This document shows, piece after piece, positions 5,999 through 14,285 of a DNA stretch of 64,000 nt (positions are counted from its first letter, which is position 1; each line of letters begins with the position of its first letter). The position numbers and the translations under genes are program-made. Below the pieces are notes generated by a model. It was given only the letters and a program-made list of their open reading frames with translations. It did not search any database and was not told the origin of the DNA. Origin of the DNA: Candidatus Frackibacter sp. WG13 (GTDB taxonomy: Bacteria > Bacillota > Halanaerobiia > Halobacteroidales > Acetohalobiaceae); NCBI RefSeq assembly GCF_900114655.1, contig NZ_FOTT01000002.1, positions 62,001 through 126,000 of the forward strand, given 5' to 3'.

Positions 5999-6299
5999 AT
6001 TGGATTTTCTCCTTAGTTTTAAGTTCATAATTTAAACCAATAATGCGATCAAAATTAAATATATCTTCTTTGTTAGTAGAGTGATTAATCTTTAAGTATT
6101 CTAATTCGTTATCCTGATCCCTAAAGATTATAACTTTTTCTAAATTATTTCTAACTATCCTACCGCCACCTTCGATCGTAATTACTAATTCGTTTTTTGG
6201 TTTTTGTTGGACCTCAACTTCATTCAATTTATAACCTAATCCTAAGATTAATAACAAAACTGCAATAAAAATAATTAAATTAACTATATTCTTTTTCAA
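5943..6299 (-). CDS. Membrane-anchored hypothetical protein, 118 aa
   Basis: I do not recognise this family. The N-terminus is one strongly hydrophobic segment (residues about 4-24) after two lysines, so it is probably anchored in the inner membrane with a charged, beta-rich tail outside. I chose the TTG at 6299 because AGGAGG lies eight bases before it; the in-frame GTG at 6308 overlaps that site. The last 56 bases run into the HD-GYP remnant on the other strand. It directly follows a 39-codon fragment on the same strand. Confidence 0.5.
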   Translation of the reverse strand: MKKNIVNLIIFIAVLLLILGLGYKLNEVEVQQKPKNELVITIEGGGRIVRNNLEKVIIFRDQDNELEYLKINHSTNKEDIFNFDRIIGLNYELKTKEKIQFKPLSELKLEKKNALNEL

Positions 6300-6311
6300 T
6301 CGATCCACCTC

Positions 6312-6431
6312 CTAATGAATAATTCTAGGGATAAAGGTTATTTCCTCTTTTTGAAAGTTTAATTCCAAAATCTTGCTGTCAAATATTAAACCACTTTGCA
6401 GGAATTTGCTATCTTCATCTAGAAGATAAAT
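6312..6431 (-). pseudogene. 3' fragment of an unrecognised gene
   Basis: On the minus strand 39 open codons (…LLDEDSKFLQSGLIFDSKIL…) end in a stop that overlaps the ribosome-binding site of the next gene, the usual spacing of a real upstream operon gene. The frame is closed by a stop at 6432-6434 and has no start codon with a ribosome-binding site, so only the tail is left. Family not recognised. Confidence 0.4.
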
Positions 6432-6451
6432 TTAAAGCACAAGACAAAAAA

Positions 6452-6652
6452 TTGAAGATTAATTATTTAGTTTTTAAAGGAAGTACATATCTTCTGGTTA
6501 AAAATAATTATAACGAATATCATGGGTTAAAGAATATAAAGGAGAGGGCTAGATTATTAAAAGGAAAATTTAATTTAAACTCAATTAAGGGAAAAGGAAC
6601 AGAGATAAAAATAAAAATTCCTTATGAGGTGATAAGAGGTGTCAAAAGTTAA
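6452..6652 (+). pseudogene. C-terminal fragment of a NarL-type sensor histidine kinase
   Basis: The last 35 residues (HGLKNIKERARLLKGKFNL and then GKGTEIKIKIP) match the end of the HATPase domain of DegS/LiaS-type kinases. The dimerisation helix, phosphoacceptor histidine and N-box are absent. It overlaps the start of the response regulator gene by 14 bases, as an intact kinase-regulator pair would. It is a truncated kinase whose partner regulator survived. Confidence 0.75.
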
Positions 6653-7301
6653 AATAATGTTAGTTGATGACCATGAGGTGGTGAGAGTAGGTTTAGCTGC
6701 CTTGTTAGAGCGAAAGGCTGAGTTTGAAATCGTTGCTCAAGCTAGTTCTGGGCAAGAAGCTGTCAAGAAGGCTGCTCAGCATGAACCTGATGTGATATTA
6801 TTAGATATTAGAATGCCCTCAGGTAGTGGGATTGATGCTTGTCGTGAAATATGTGATAAACATCCTGATACTAAGGTTGTTATGTTGAGTTCATATACTG
6901 ATGATGAAGTAATCGTTAAGTCAATCATGGCTGGTGCGTGTGGATATATATTAAAAGAGATTAATAGTCAAGAATTGATCAAAGCAGTAGAAGCAGTTAA
7001 TAGAGGAGAATCACTTTTAGATCCTAAAATTACACAAAAAGTTTTGGAACATATGCGTAAATCTAATAATGAAGACGAGAAAGAAGATAAATTAACTGAG
7101 AGGGAAGAAGCAATTCTTGAATTCTTAGCTGAAGGTTTGACTAATCGAGAAATTGCTAAAAAGGTACATTTAGCAGAAAAGACGGTCAGGAATTATGTTA
7201 GTAAAATTTTGAAGAAGCTAGACTTAAATAATCGTGTGGAGGCCGCAACCTATATTACCAAGAAAAAGATGAGACAACAGAATAAATACTTAGAACTTTA
7301 A
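6639..7301 (+). CDS. NarL/FixJ-family response regulator
   Basis: A 220-residue two-component regulator. The receiver domain (residues about 4-120) keeps the acidic pair D10-D11, the phosphoacceptor D56 and the conserved K106. A LuxR-type helix-turn-helix follows (about 150-210: LTEREEAILEFLAEGLTNRE). It starts at a GTG inside the end of the kinase remnant. With its kinase reduced to a fragment it is now an orphan; it may be driven by another kinase or by small phosphodonors. Targets unknown. Confidence 0.9.
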   Translation: MSKVKIMLVDDHEVVRVGLAALLERKAEFEIVAQASSGQEAVKKAAQHEPDVILLDIRMPSGSGIDACREICDKHPDTKVVMLSSYTDDEVIVKSIMAGACGYILKEINSQELIKAVEAVNRGESLLDPKITQKVLEHMRKSNNEDEKEDKLTEREEAILEFLAEGLTNREIAKKVHLAEKTVRNYVSKILKKLDLNNRVEAATYITKKKMRQQNKYLEL

Positions 7302-7312
7302 GCTAAATTACT

Positions 7313-7344
7313 AAGACAAATGGATTTCCATTTGTCTTTTCTTG
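7313..7344 (+). terminator. Terminator after the response regulator
   Basis: A perfect 11-bp stem (AAGACAAATGG with CCATTTGTCTT) and a four-base loop, then TTCTTG. Confidence 0.85.
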
Positions 7345-7404
7345 TATTCAATCTAAATAGTAATCTTTGTTTTAGGAAATAATACATAAAAAGGAGTATT
7401 GATT

Positions 7405-8313
7405 ATGCCAAAAGTAATCATGGTCTTTATTGATGGATTTGGTTTAGGGGAAAACTCATCAACAACTAATCCTTTGGTTACCGCAGAAACTCCAGGATTT
7501 AATTATATGTTAGGAGGAAATGATTTAATAGCTGACATAGGAAGGTGTGATTCTAAGCTTGCTTCACTTATTCCAACAGATGCTTCGCTAGGGGTAGAAG
7601 GCTTGCCTCAGAGTGCTACAGGACAGACTGCTATTTTAACTGGGGTTAATGCTTCTCAAAAGCTTGAAAGACACATTAGTGGTTTTCCTACGCCTACTTT
7701 AAAGGAAATTATTAAAGAGGAAAGTGTTTTTAAAAAGATAAGTAATTTAGGCCTTAAGCCGCACTTTATTAATACTTATACACGAGAATACTTCCAAAAA
7801 CAAGTTGAATCTAAACGGTATGCAGCCACTACTTTAGCAGTAATGGCAGGGGGAATAGAATTTAATTATGTTGATAAAGAGTTGTTAGCCGGGAAATCGA
7901 TTTATCATGATCTTAAACAAGAAGTTTTAATTGAGCGTGGTTTTAATCTTCCTTTAATTACTTCTCATGATTCAGCTATTAGATTGTATAATGTTATTGA
8001 TAAATATGATTTTATTCTATTTGAATATTTCTTGTCTGATGTTGTGGGGCATAAGCAGGATTTAAAAGAAGCGATAAAGGTTGTTGAAGATTTAGATGAA
8101 TTTATCTTTACTTTAATTAAGAGAATAAATTTAGAAGAAGTTTTATTAGTGATTACTAGTGACCATGGTAATATTGAAGATTTAAGTGTTAGAACTCATA
8201 CTAAAAATTTAGTGCCTACTATTTTGGTCGGGGCTTATAAAGATCAAATTAAAGATAGAATTACAAGTCTGACTGATCTAACACCAGCAATAATTAGCTT
8301 ATTTCAAAGTTGA
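7405..8313 (+). CDS. Metalloenzyme-superfamily protein (cofactor-independent phosphoglycerate mutase/phosphopentomutase-like)
   Basis: A 302-residue member of the alkaline-phosphatase-like metalloenzyme superfamily. It has the N-terminal metal-binding segment VFIDGFGLG, a nucleophile-region motif (PQSATGQTAILTG), a histidine segment (SDVVGHKQD) and the C-terminal TSDHGNIED. It is about 200 residues shorter than true GpmI, so it is not ordinary phosphoglycerate mutase. The reaction is unknown. The ATG at 7405 is eight bases after AAGGAG; an in-frame TTG at 7399 is too close. Confidence 0.8.
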   Translation: MPKVIMVFIDGFGLGENSSTTNPLVTAETPGFNYMLGGNDLIADIGRCDSKLASLIPTDASLGVEGLPQSATGQTAILTGVNASQKLERHISGFPTPTLKEIIKEESVFKKISNLGLKPHFINTYTREYFQKQVESKRYAATTLAVMAGGIEFNYVDKELLAGKSIYHDLKQEVLIERGFNLPLITSHDSAIRLYNVIDKYDFILFEYFLSDVVGHKQDLKEAIKVVEDLDEFIFTLIKRINLEEVLLVITSDHGNIEDLSVRTHTKNLVPTILVGAYKDQIKDRITSLTDLTPAIISLFQS

Positions 8314-9744: not shown

Positions 9745-9786
9745 ATGAAAATAAGTTAAATAAATATTAATTTTTAAATTAATATA

Positions 9787-9830
9787 ATCGAGGATTTAGC
9801 TTTATGCTGAATTCTCGATTTCTATTTTTA
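9787..9830 (+). terminator. Terminator of glnA
   Basis: A 14-bp stem with two G:U pairs (9787-9800 with 9806-9819) is followed by a T-rich tail. Confidence 0.8.
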
Positions 9831-10081
9831 TAGTAAACAATTTTTCTTGATATTAGCGTTTTCTATGCCTCCTGAAACACTAGAGTCACCATGCTTAAGG
9901 AGATTATAATTGACTATGAGTAGTAGTGTCTCATATAAATTATTAATCCTCTCTAGCAGGAAAATTGATAATTAATGCTGAAAAACATATTATATAGTTA
10001 AACAGTAATAATATACTAAATATATACTTAAAGTTACTTTTTTATGGTTCTATCAATTTGGTTGAGGAGGCATTAATAAAG
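9831..10081 (+). other. Intergenic leader of the dehydratase-activase cassette
   Basis: I find no gene in these 251 bases. ATGCCTCCT (9865-9873) is the exact reverse complement of AGGAGGCAT (10065-10073), which is the ribosome-binding site of the next gene, so long-range pairing could hide that site. No convincing promoter is visible. Confidence 0.4.
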
Positions 10082-11062
10082 ATGTCAGTTAGAATTGGAA
10101 TTCCTAAGACTCTATCCTATTATGTTTACTATCCGTTATGGGAAAAGTTCTTTACTGAGTTAGGAGCGGAAGTAGTAGTATCACAGAATACTTCACGACG
10201 AATAGTAGATGATGGGGTAAAGGAGACGGTGAATGATGCCTGTGTTCCTATTAAATTATTTCATGGTCATGTTTTAAATTTAAAAGATAAGGTTGACTAT
10301 ATATTTATTCCACGATTGGTTAGTGTTAATGGAGAGCAGATATATTGCCCTAAATTCTTAGGGTTACCGGATATGATCAAGAGTACGTTAAGGGGTTTAC
10401 CAGAGGTTATTGCTCCTAAGATTGACCTTCGTAAAGGTAGGTTTGAGTTGTTAAAGATAGTCTATCAAGTTGGATCTATTTTAACTAAGAATCTTTTACA
10501 GATATATTCTGCTTTTAAAGAAGCAAAGAGTTATTTTGAAGATTTTAATAACTTATTAAAAGAAGGTTACACAGTAGAGGAATCACTAAAGTTATTAGAA
10601 GGTGAAGAAGTTAACGTTGATTTAGGGCAAGAAGAAAGCTCGTTGAAAGTGGCTGTTTTGGGATATCCGTATATAACTTATGATCCTTATATTTCTGTTA
10701 ATATGATTCAGAAATTACGAGGACTAGGAGCTGAAGTTGTAACTACTGACATGCTTACTCATAGGCAGCTAGATAAGCAGAAGCCAAAACTAAAGAAAGA
10801 TCTATTCTGGACTTTTAGTGGCGAAGTAGTTAAAGCTGGTTATCACTATTGTGAAACTGGTGAGATTGATGGTCTTATCCATGTCACTGCTTTTGGTTGT
10901 GGTCCAGATTTTATGGTAGATAAATTGTTAGAGTTAGCTGCTAAAGATAAAGAAGATATAGCTTTTATGACTTTGACTATCGATGAACATACTGGAGAGG
11001 CAGGCATTGTTACTAGGTTAGAAGCGTTCGTTGATATGTTAAATTTAAGGAGGAAGCACTAA
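10082..11062 (+). CDS. DUF2229/CoA-enzyme-activase-type protein (COG3580-like)
   Basis: A 326-residue soluble protein starting SVRIGIPKTLSYYVYYPLWE, the typical start of the acyl-CoA dehydratase activase-related family. Four cysteines lie in conserved-looking contexts (NDACVPIK, YCPKFLG, HYCETGE, FGCGPDF), suggesting an iron-sulfur cluster site as in HgdB-like dehydratase subunits. The TLTIDEHTGEAG…TRLEAFVDML tail is shared with both related genes downstream. The start is the ATG behind GAGGAGG. It overlaps the next gene by one base. Substrate and reaction are unknown. Confidence 0.75.
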   Translation: MSVRIGIPKTLSYYVYYPLWEKFFTELGAEVVVSQNTSRRIVDDGVKETVNDACVPIKLFHGHVLNLKDKVDYIFIPRLVSVNGEQIYCPKFLGLPDMIKSTLRGLPEVIAPKIDLRKGRFELLKIVYQVGSILTKNLLQIYSAFKEAKSYFEDFNNLLKEGYTVEESLKLLEGEEVNVDLGQEESSLKVAVLGYPYITYDPYISVNMIQKLRGLGAEVVTTDMLTHRQLDKQKPKLKKDLFWTFSGEVVKAGYHYCETGEIDGLIHVTAFGCGPDFMVDKLLELAAKDKEDIAFMTLTIDEHTGEAGIVTRLEAFVDMLNLRRKH

Positions 11063-12147
11063 TGAAGGTAACCTTTCCGTATATGGGAACTTCTAATATT
11101 GTTTTTAAATCTATTATGGAAGAGTTGGGACATGAAGTAGTTGTTAAAAAGCCTAGCAAAAGAACTCTTAGTTTAGGGACTGAACATGCTCCAGAGTTTG
11201 CCTGTATTCCGTTTAAAATCTTATTAGGAACATACTTAGAGTCATTAGAAGAAGGAGCAGATTTAATCGTTACCTCTGGAGGGAGAGGGCCTTGCCGAGC
11301 TGGACATTATGCTCAATTACAAGAGAAGATTTTGCATAATTTAGGTTATGATTTTGAAATGGTAGTCTTTGAAGCATTGACAGATAGTTTTAAAGATTTC
11401 TTTAGTAACATAAGAAAAGTGGCTGGCTCAGAGCTATCTTGGTGGCAGATATTTAAACTTATAAAAAAAGAATGGTATAGATTGATGGTGCTAGATGATA
11501 TAGAAAGGTTGACTCATAAGGTGCGGCCTCGGGAATTAAAAAAAGGCACTACTACTAATGTCTTTGCTGAAGCTCAAGAAATAGTGGCAGTTGCTAAAAC
11601 AGAGGAAGAGATTAAAAAGGCTAAAGAGAAAAGTTTTGAGTTATTAAATGATGTACCACAGGACCCGAATTATGAACCACTAAAGATAGGTATTATCGGT
11701 GAGATTTATGTAGTCTTAGAACCATTTGCTAATTTAGAATTAGAGAAGACTTTAGGAGAGATGGGAGTAGAAGTTGATCGTTCAATCTATTTAACAGGTT
11801 GGACTAAAGATCATACTTTCTTTGTCCCTAAAAAGGATGGAGTAGAAGAAGCGGCAAAACCATACTTAGATCAGTTAGTAGGCGGGCATGGGCTAGATTC
11901 AGTAGGGAATACGGTGCTATATGCTCAAAATGGATTTGATGGAGTAATTCAATTGGCTCCTTTTACTTGTATTCCAGAAATTGTAGCTAAAAGTATCTTA
12001 CCAGAGGTAAGTAAGGATTGGAATATCCCTTTTTTAACTATCTTTTTAGATGAAAAGACAGGAAAAGCTGGGGTGACAACTCGTCTAGAAGCATTTGTTG
12101 ATTTAATAGCTAAAAAAAGAGATGAAGCGAGGGATAGGATTTCATGA
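11062..12147 (+). CDS. HgdB/DUF2229-type iron-sulfur protein (COG3581-like), copy 1
   Basis: A 361-residue relative of 2-hydroxyacyl-CoA dehydratase subunits. Three cysteines are in the same contexts as in the paralogue at 13185 (FACIPFK, GPCRAGH, FTCIPEI), likely ligands of a cluster buried near the subunit interface. The C-terminus has the family tail LDEKTGKAGVTTRLEAFVDL. The ATG overlaps the stop of the upstream gene and the last four bases overlap the ATPase gene, so translation is probably coupled. No substrate genes lie nearby. Confidence 0.75.
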   Translation: MKVTFPYMGTSNIVFKSIMEELGHEVVVKKPSKRTLSLGTEHAPEFACIPFKILLGTYLESLEEGADLIVTSGGRGPCRAGHYAQLQEKILHNLGYDFEMVVFEALTDSFKDFFSNIRKVAGSELSWWQIFKLIKKEWYRLMVLDDIERLTHKVRPRELKKGTTTNVFAEAQEIVAVAKTEEEIKKAKEKSFELLNDVPQDPNYEPLKIGIIGEIYVVLEPFANLELEKTLGEMGVEVDRSIYLTGWTKDHTFFVPKKDGVEEAAKPYLDQLVGGHGLDSVGNTVLYAQNGFDGVIQLAPFTCIPEIVAKSILPEVSKDWNIPFLTIFLDEKTGKAGVTTRLEAFVDLIAKKRDEARDRIS

Positions 12148-13103
12148 ATGGGTACTTAGGAATTGATGTTGGTTCAGTTAGTACTAATTTGGTTGTAATT
12201 AATTCTGAAGGGGAAGTATTAGAAAAGATATACCTTCGTACCAAAGGACAGCCGATCGATGTAGTACAGAGAGGGTTAAAAGAGTTAAAGCAGAGTCTGG
12301 CAGATGATATAGAAATTAAAGGTGTAGGTACTACTGGCAGTGGTCGTAATTTAACTAGTGTCGTGGTTGGTGCAGACACAGTAAAGAATGAAATTACGGC
12401 TCATGCGGTAGCTTCTTCACATATTGTGCCAGATGTAAGAACTGTTTTAGAAATTGGGGGACAAGATTCTAAAATTACAATTTTAAGGAATGGCATTGTC
12501 GTTGATTTTGCTATGAATACTGTCTGTGCAGCAGGAACCGGTTCATTTTTAGACCAGCAGGCTGCTAGATTAGGAATTCCGATAGAAGACTTTGGTAAGA
12601 TGGCTCTTAAATCCAAGAATAAGGTGCGGATAGCAGGACGTTGTTCTGTCTTTGCTGAATCAGATATGATTCATAAACAGCAGATGGGTCATAATTTAGA
12701 GGATATTATTGCTGGTTTGTGCGAAGCATTAGTAAGGAATTACTTAAATAATGTTGGGCAAGGTAAAGATATATTAGCACCGGTTGTCTTCCAAGGAGGA
12801 GTAGCAGCTAATGAAGGGATTAAAGAAGCTTTCGCTGAGGCTTTAGAGACTGAAATCGTAGTCCCTGAACATCATGATGTAATGGGGGCGATTGGAGCAG
12901 CATTATTGGCTAAAGATAAGATAGTAAATGACGGAGAAGAGACCAGTTTTAAAGGGTGGAATGTAACAGAGATAGAATATACACCTTCTAGTTTCGAGTG
13001 CGAAGGCTGTGCTAACTTATGTGAGGTAATAGAGATTCGGATGGATGGTGAAATAGTTTCCCGTTGGGGGCATAGATGTAATAAATGGGATTTGGCTCAA
13101 TAA
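12144..13103 (+). CDS. BadF/BadG/HgdC-type ATPase (acyl-CoA dehydratase activase family)
   Basis: An ASKHA-fold ATPase of 319 residues that, in this family, donates low-potential electrons to a partner protein at the cost of ATP. Visible are the phosphate loop GIDVGSVSTN (6-15), the second nucleotide motif GGQDSK and the two cysteines C128 (CAAGTGSFLDQQ) and C167 (GRCSVFAESDM), which match the pair that bridges the [4Fe-4S] cluster between monomers in HgdC. A C-terminal extension adds C286, C289, C293 and C312, perhaps another metal site. It sits between the HgdB-like genes. Confidence 0.9.
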   Translation: MNGYLGIDVGSVSTNLVVINSEGEVLEKIYLRTKGQPIDVVQRGLKELKQSLADDIEIKGVGTTGSGRNLTSVVVGADTVKNEITAHAVASSHIVPDVRTVLEIGGQDSKITILRNGIVVDFAMNTVCAAGTGSFLDQQAARLGIPIEDFGKMALKSKNKVRIAGRCSVFAESDMIHKQQMGHNLEDIIAGLCEALVRNYLNNVGQGKDILAPVVFQGGVAANEGIKEAFAEALETEIVVPEHHDVMGAIGAALLAKDKIVNDGEETSFKGWNVTEIEYTPSSFECEGCANLCEVIEIRMDGEIVSRWGHRCNKWDLAQ

Positions 13104-13126
13104 CATTTTGGTGATATTTGATTAAT

Positions 13127-13177
13127 CTCCTAGTTAATTGTTAATAATAAGTTTGAAGTGAATTATTAACTAGGAGG
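13127..13177 (+). promoter_or_regulatory. Possible ribosome-binding-site switch (alternative hairpins)
   Basis: CTCCTAGTTAAT (13127-13138) can pair perfectly with 13165-13176 and so hide the AGGAGG (13172-13177) of the next gene. GTTAATAAT (13140-13148) can instead pair perfectly with 13162-13170, leaving AGGAGG free. Both left arms compete for 13165-13170, so only one hairpin can form at a time. Confidence 0.55.
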
Positions 13178-13184
13178 AAGAAGT

Positions 13185-14273
13185 ATGAAGGTGACCTTTC
13201 CCCAGATGGGGAGTTTAAATATTCCATTAGAAACTTTGCTACAGGGATTAAATATAGAGATAGTTTCACCGCCACCTTTGACTAAAAGAACTTTAAACCT
13301 GGGGGTTAAATATTCTCCAGAGTCAGCCTGTCTTCCGTTTAAATTAGTTTTAGGTAACTTTATTGAGGCATTAGAACTAGGAGCTGAAGCGATAATTATG
13401 GCTGGAGGGAACGGCCCTTGTCGTTTTGGCCATTTTGGAGAATTAGCTAATGATATTTTAACTGATCTTGGTTATGAATTTGAGTTGTATATTCTAGAAC
13501 CACCAGTTAAATCAATTGTAGATATCTTTGTTAAATTATCGCCTAATTTCAACTGGGTACAGGTTATTAAATCTTTAAGGTTTGCTTGGAAGAAACTAAT
13601 CTTAATTGAAGAGATTAAAAAGTATAGATTAAAGCACGGTGTCTTTCTTTCTAAAAACCAGATTAACAAGTTAGAGGATGAGTATCTACAATTAATTAGA
13701 GAAGCAAAAAATAAGGAAGAGTTAGCAAGTATAGACCATAATTATAAGAAAGAAATAGATGAATTTACTGATGGGCAACAAACTTCACTTTTAAAGGTTG
13801 GCTTAGTAGGGGATATCTATACAGTTTCTGAGCCTTTTGCTAATCTAAATGTATCTAAGCGACTTAATGAGTTAGGAGTGGCAATAGACCGAGCTGTATT
13901 CGTAAGTAAATGGGTCAAGGATAATTTGATCTGTGGTGCATTAAATATTTCTAGTAATCGTAAGGTAATTAAAGCAGCTAAAAGATATTTGCAAGAAGGA
14001 GTTGGAGGCTTGGGTCTAGAAACTGTAGGGGAGACAGTTCTTTATGGGGAACAAGGGTATGATGGAGTAATTCAACTAGCGCCTTTTGGTTGTATGCCAG
14101 AGATAGTTGCAAAAAGTTTGTTAACTGAGGTTGAACGTGATTTTGGGCTCCCAGTTTTAACTTTAACTTTAGATGAACATGCTAGTGCTACTGGGGTTCA
14201 AACCCGTCTAGAAGCTTTCGTTGATCTTTTAACACAAAAGAAAAATTTGAATAAGAAAACATTCCTGAATTAA
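13185..14273 (+). CDS. HgdB/DUF2229-type iron-sulfur protein (COG3581-like), copy 2
   Basis: A 362-residue paralogue of the protein at 11062-12147, alike from the first residues (MKVTFPQMGSLNIP against MKVTFPYMGTSNIV) to the tail (TLDEHASATGVQTRLEAFVD). The three cysteines are at matching places (SACLPFK, GPCRFGH, FGCMPEI) and one extra is present (LICGALN). ATG follows a strong AGGAGG that may be hidden by the hairpin described just upstream. It closes the cassette; a terminator overlaps its stop codon. Function unknown, probably a second redox partner of the ATPase. Confidence 0.75.
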   Translation: MKVTFPQMGSLNIPLETLLQGLNIEIVSPPPLTKRTLNLGVKYSPESACLPFKLVLGNFIEALELGAEAIIMAGGNGPCRFGHFGELANDILTDLGYEFELYILEPPVKSIVDIFVKLSPNFNWVQVIKSLRFAWKKLILIEEIKKYRLKHGVFLSKNQINKLEDEYLQLIREAKNKEELASIDHNYKKEIDEFTDGQQTSLLKVGLVGDIYTVSEPFANLNVSKRLNELGVAIDRAVFVSKWVKDNLICGALNISSNRKVIKAAKRYLQEGVGGLGLETVGETVLYGEQGYDGVIQLAPFGCMPEIVAKSLLTEVERDFGLPVLTLTLDEHASATGVQTRLEAFVDLLTQKKNLNKKTFLN

Positions 14274-14285
14274 GGGATGTTTTTA
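14256..14285 (+). terminator. Terminator overlapping the end of the cassette
   Basis: A 10-bp stem (AAAACATTCC with GGGATGTTTT, one G:U) carries the stop codon of the last gene (14271-14273) in its loop and ends in T residues. Confidence 0.7.

Follow-up and report, generated by a model that had tools for sequence, protein, structure and literature searches.

An operon for a putative ATP-driven iron-sulfur enzyme of the 2-hydroxyacyl-CoA dehydratase superfamily in Candidatus Frackibacter, and its spoVA-linked sister cassette

The superfamily of 2-hydroxyacyl-CoA dehydratases and benzoyl-CoA reductases uses ATP to drive electrons uphill. Three described systems are the closest to the locus analyzed here. 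In HadBC with HadI (3o3m, 4eht), a heterodimer works with an activator ATPase, and three cysteines hold each [4Fe-4S] cluster. DCCP with DCCP-R (6eno, 7yyl) consists of a homodimer with an [8Fe-9S] double cubane and a short activase. BzdNOPQ and MbdONPQ (8s02, 9gai) are ATP-driven electron modules with two different ATPase subunits; the [4Fe-4S]-OH2 cluster of BzdO is bound by Cys95, Cys128, and Cys380, and six cysteines serve the [8Fe-9S] cluster of BzdN (PMC11971306).

We compared these systems with four co-directional genes of Candidatus Frackibacter sp. WG13, here called D, A, H, and B. They occupy positions 10082-14273 on the forward strand of the window, by which we mean the whole 64,000-nucleotide stretch that was analyzed. 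The features are as follows:

9786..9820, +, terminator-like hairpin of 15 pairs after glnA, at the upstream border (consensus match only)
9965..9993, +, sigma-70-like promoter match upstream of D (consensus match only)
10064..10070, +, ribosome binding site GAGGAGG of D
10082..11062, +, D, DUF2229 protein with an HGD-D-like C terminus, 326 aa; C54, C89, and C273 invariant in the family
11062..12147, +, A, HgdB-like "CoA protein activase," 361 aa; C48, C78, and C303 invariant in the family
12144..13103, +, H, HgdC-type ATPase, 319 aa; C128 and C167, and a C-terminal CxxCx3C...C (286, 289, 293, 312)
13185..14273, +, B, second A-type subunit of an old separate subfamily, 362 aa; C49, C79, and C303 align with those of A
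14255..14284, +, terminator-like hairpin of 12 pairs at the end of B, at the downstream border (consensus match only)

The start of D was placed at ATG 10082, behind GAGGAGG; the mechanical ORF opens at TTG 10058, and numbering from there turns cysteines 54, 89, and 273 into 62, 97, and 281. D and A overlap by 1 nucleotide and A and H by 4, and a gap of 81 nucleotides separates H from B. The initial annotation had described four tightly packed genes, and the ORFs lie where it placed them, far beyond chance. Promoter matches were no more frequent than in shuffled sequences, and an Rfam search returned no match. The neighboring genes are glnA, DUF441, DUF1934, argS, and pyrG (the last two named from sequence), and no CoA transferase, ligase, or dehydrogenase adjoins the operon, which agrees with the earlier remark that no substrate gene is nearby. 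Upstream of glnA, at 7399-8313 of the window, is a gene for a 304-aa protein of the metalloenzyme superfamily (phosphoglycerate mutase-like), which scored far below every equivalog cutoff.

D matched DUF2229 (PF09989; cutoff, 29.4 bits) over its full length with 185 bits (E value, 1.5e-54), while the matches of A and B to this family were weak and not full length (39 and 41 bits). Scores against HGD-D (PF06050; cutoff, 28.4 bits) were 25.5 for D, 28.6 for A, and 21.7 for B; none of the three exceeded the cutoff over the whole protein, and D and B fell below it with a match at the C terminus only. H matched BcrAD_BadFG (PF01869) with 162 bits (3e-47; cutoff, 31.5) and the acyl-CoA dehydratase activase model TIGR00241 with 191 bits (2e-56; cutoff, 125.4), and its sequence matches include HadI, HgdC, MbdQ, and DCCP-R. 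The benzoyl-CoA equivalog models scored far below their cutoffs.

D, A, and B each have three conserved cysteines. The homology between D and A runs along their length (hhalign E value, 1.4e-31) and brings these cysteines into register; A and B are 42% identical, which bears out their earlier description as paralogues. A two-sequence alignment of A with the genome's HGD-D protein likewise matches all three cysteines. As for the six cysteines pointed out in H, C128 and C167 are invariant in 16 of 16 sequences (a DCCP-R-like outlier included), and these two, as well as C286, C289, C293, and C312, are each conserved in at least 90% of aligned family members.

PDB searches with the single sequences of D and A gave chance matches only, and their solved relatives were reached by profiles and folds. 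For the AlphaFold models (pLDDT, 91.9 for D and 89.2 for A), the top PDB matches were HadBC chains, DCCP, and BzdNO/MbdON, ahead of everything else, with loose Foldseek superpositions over whole chains (rmsd, 6.5 to 9 Å; TM, about 0.55 to 0.6). DCCP was the only solved relative found with the D profile, which aligned the third cysteine. The sequence matches of H and the modeled folds of D and A point to an ATP-driven redox enzyme of the HgdB/HgdC superfamily, as the initial annotation had proposed. The cysteines of D (54, 89, 273) and A (48, 78, 303) are spaced as in BzdO, with two about 30 to 35 residues apart and one near the C terminus. Because of the three cysteines per subunit, this spacing, and the predicted fold, D, A, and B most likely carry one site-open [4Fe-4S] cluster each, and a double cubane is unlikely. 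Of the dehydratase/double-cubane superfamily named earlier, the superfamily thus stood, but its double-cubane option was rejected, as six cysteines would be needed.

The operon resembles HadBC/HadI in the fold of D and A, the homologous ATPase, the heterodimer-plus-activator plan, and the three cysteines per [4Fe-4S] cluster, but its D is shorter and matches DUF2229 instead of giving a full HGD-D match, its H has a Cys4 tail, B is an extra, optional subunit, and acyl-CoA pathway genes are missing. With DCCP, it shares the fold and a homologous ATPase; against that homodimer stand a predicted heterodimer with three cysteines per subunit and a Cys4-tailed H. BzdNOPQ and MbdONPQ share the fold, the ATP-driven electron module, and, in BzdO, the three-cysteine cluster, but they have two ATPase subunits where the operon has one, BzdN carries a double cubane, and the operon is without aromatic-degradation genes. 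Neither the two different ATPase subunits nor the aromatic-degradation context by which a class I benzoyl-CoA reductase is recognized was found here.

Fused DUF2229 homologues of about 1440 aa read H1-H2-D-A (e.g., L121 to L125 and L138 to L140). They have the modules and cysteines of the operon but differ from it in having two unequal ATPase domains and no B. The two cluster cysteines are present in each ATPase domain, only H2 has the Cys4 tail, and the D and A parts retain their three cysteines in most fusions. Next to H-H-D fusions of about 1000 aa, a separate A gene adjoins in three of four cases. In the split loci, D and A overlap in 137 of 169 and A and H in 101 of 156. The proposal that the four proteins form one complex is therefore favored by gene structure: the H-H-D-A order of the fusions indicates that the D, A, and H parts would form one machine, and the translational coupling is conserved. 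The fusions suggest H2:D:A as the equivalent of the split form. The basic unit is D-A-H, and the fourth gene, B, probably encodes an alternative A-type subunit. In fusions of about 1350 aa (L130 to L132), the A part is without all three cysteines and H2 is without the Cys4 tail; this one case of joint loss is a hint that the tail and A work together, and a zinc site is a possible alternative role.

Eleven proteins of the B type group in a single clade (UFBoot, 100 in a tailored IQ-TREE run; FastTree support, 0.977), while a FastTree run with a larger set did not recover a wider B clade. B immediately follows H in five genomes of the family to which the window belongs, the source genome included, and likewise in L152, L177, L182, L189, L194, and L196, which belong to other lineages. 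We rejected the idea that B arose by a recent local duplication of A, since the clade is old and spans lineages. In L182 and L196, the cassette reads D-H-B and has no A. Because A is missing while B remains in these two loci, B probably replaces A beside D; a single D and a single H would then serve two heterodimers. A further gene order, D-H-A instead of D-A-H, occurs in L226 to L228 and L252, where the protein in third place is A-type, not B-type.

DUF2229 was found in 179 of the 199 sampled genomes of the phylum, encoded either by split genes (about 330 aa) or within larger fusions (about 1000 or 1440 aa), and matches also occurred in the control genomes of Thermotoga, Lactococcus, Thermus, and Deinobacterium. 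Far from being restricted to the source genome, the module is among the phylum's commonest protein sets. The word "undescribed" in the initial annotation suits the biochemistry, in the literature searched, but not the proteins themselves, which belong to an annotated family of very wide distribution. Common as it is, this family is a blank in biochemical terms, and the operon's subunit plan is unlike those of the solved relatives found. The source genome has three clear HgdC-type ATPases: the H of the operon, that of a second cassette on contig C18 (L010), and the activase on contig C14 (L011). At the latter locus (6098-7854; G000:C14), a 328-aa HGD-D protein is followed by a 249-aa activase between murI and lactate-utilization-like genes; no other protein of the genome matches HGD-D over its full length.

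The clade of the window cassette comprises 67 loci with a support of 0.963 (74 loci with a support of 0.77 in another tree), and no linkage to sporulation genes was seen within it. The nearest relatives fetched for the cassette include Moorella, Pelotomaculum, Desulfofundulus, Syntrophomonas, and Tepidanaerobacter. Neighbors vary by lineage and show no shared theme. The combination of glnA with DUF441-DUF1934-argS-pyrG was found beside the cassette only near the order of the source genome, and selA-selB and branched-chain amino-acid (liv) transporter genes were found only in Syntrophomonadaceae-like loci. In L077, L087, L094, and seven more loci, D-A-H comes immediately after selA-selB and is itself often followed by a branched-chain amino-acid ABC transporter. 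We found no recurring substrate gene in the operon or in about 180 related loci; genes for a CoA transferase, a 2-hydroxyacid dehydrogenase, or an acyl-CoA dehydrogenase were absent from the window and did not recur in the related loci. The initial annotation had named a constant pairing of the homologues with a known dehydratase operon as an outcome that would speak against its reading, and no such pairing was seen.

The second cassette of the source genome (L010, 6243-9213; G000:C18) belongs to a sister clade and has the same three subunits, translationally coupled as D-A-H, but it is without B and stands in a sigF-spoVA block. This block reads sigF-spoVAC-spoVAD-spoVAE-spoVAEa-spoVAF-(ZIP-type transporter)-D-A-H, with the marker identities confirmed by Pfam. 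The clade of the window cassette and the spoVA clade of Halanaerobiia group together (support, 1.0). Among the matches listed, 71 genomes had both a split D and SpoVAD, and D lies within 12 kb of spoVAD in 44 of them, compared with a chance expectation of about 0.9 such pairs; these linkage counts are inflated by genome relatedness and gene-order inertia. In all 44, drawn from many families among the matches listed, D is on the same strand as spoVAD and downstream of it. The median gap between the preceding gene and D in spoVA-linked loci is 31 nucleotides, and lysA often follows the cassette.

Of a set of 61 relatives, 29 have SpoVAD, and D-A-H adjoins spoVAD or spoVAF in 27 of these (22 in one survey plus G216, G218, G223, G234, and G243). 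None of the 17 D loci placed for 16 relatives lacking SpoVAD belonged to the spoVA-linked clade; all fell into other clades. A third D-A-H clade (L230 to L239 and L221 to L225; support, 1.0) comes from relatives without SpoVAD. The spoVA genes are expressed in the forespore in Bacillus and Clostridium. Our literature search found one paper that mentions DUF2229 and none joining the family with sporulation, and the main text of a paper on the C. difficile sporulation regulon has nothing on the family. The spoVA linkage is a strong association, not a function.

We think it probable that the operon encodes one ATP-driven, low-potential [4Fe-4S] enzyme of the 2-hydroxyacyl-CoA dehydratase/benzoyl-CoA reductase superfamily, and that this enzyme follows its own subunit plan. 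In such an enzyme, an H homodimer would hold a [4Fe-4S] cluster between its subunits through Cys128 and Cys167 of each and would receive electrons from ferredoxin or flavodoxin, possibly via the C-terminal Cys4 site. ATP hydrolysis would then drive electrons from H to the D:A heterodimer, or to D:B. In D and in A, three cysteines would bind a single [4Fe-4S] cluster and leave one iron free; one of the two clusters would relay electrons and the other would meet the substrate. B would be the alternative to A, with the same D and H serving both D:A and D:B. Because the module recurs without catabolic neighbors and the sister clade travels with a spore-formation block, the substrate is more likely to be a widespread metabolite, cofactor, or protein target than a catabolic acyl-CoA.

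Other readings of the operon were weighed against this one. An ordinary (R)-2-hydroxyacyl-CoA dehydratase, with its CoA transferase and dehydrogenase genes elsewhere in the genome, would belong to the same superfamily and would have the same heterodimer with activator and three cysteines per subunit, as in HadB; we nevertheless consider it rather improbable, given HGD-D matches of D, A, and B near or below the cutoff, the lack of any acyl-CoA pathway gene recurring in about 180 loci, a spread (179 of 199 genomes) ill-suited to specialized amino-acid fermentation, and the binding of one clade to spoVA. A reductase of small molecules of the DCCP type is highly improbable: although DCCP is among the best structural matches and is the one solved relative that the D profile reached, both the cysteine count required for [8Fe-9S] and the homodimer with short activase differ from what the operon encodes. 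ATP-driven activation of other metalloenzymes is known for corrinoid proteins and MCR, and D:A might in the same way pass low-potential electrons to another protein or cofactor, with no metabolite converted. The near-universal spread and the absence of metabolic neighbors fit such a reductive activase or repair machine, and members of the spoVA clade could plausibly act while a cell develops or lies dormant; but no target gene co-occurs consistently and the fold of D:A is still that of a heterodimer that converts a substrate, so that we give this reading a low probability as well.

For the spoVA linkage, we tentatively propose, at a likelihood a little short of even, that D-A-H is an ATP-driven iron-sulfur enzyme specific to anaerobes and that an old branch of it joined the forespore block (sigF-spoVA-D-A-H-lysA) in most anaerobic spore-formers, where it would serve spore formation, dormancy, or germination; the window operon would be the vegetative sister with an exchangeable second partner, B. 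The linkage may instead reflect gene-order inertia only, D-A-H having been placed by chance and kept without a role in the spore. The spoIIA-spoVA-lysA block is itself an old synteny, related genomes are not independent, and some SpoVAD-bearing genomes have no DUF2229 at all, all of which favor inertia. The uniform strand and downstream position of D in all 44 linked genomes, which come from many families (among the matches listed), the short median gap, and the failure to find this clade in the relatives without SpoVAD, which keep other D-A-H clades, argue against it, and we regard inertia alone as somewhat unlikely.

D-A-H is among the most widespread uncharacterized enzyme sets of anaerobic Firmicutes, a family left unassigned because of its lack of pathway neighbors. 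The D-H-B operons amount to a natural experiment on which subunit can be exchanged. The most interesting lead, the spoVA-linked sister clade, lies outside the window; its linkage is the first strong hint of when one branch of the enzyme works and, together with the absence of this clade from the SpoVAD-less relatives examined, it makes the question of DUF2229 function testable.
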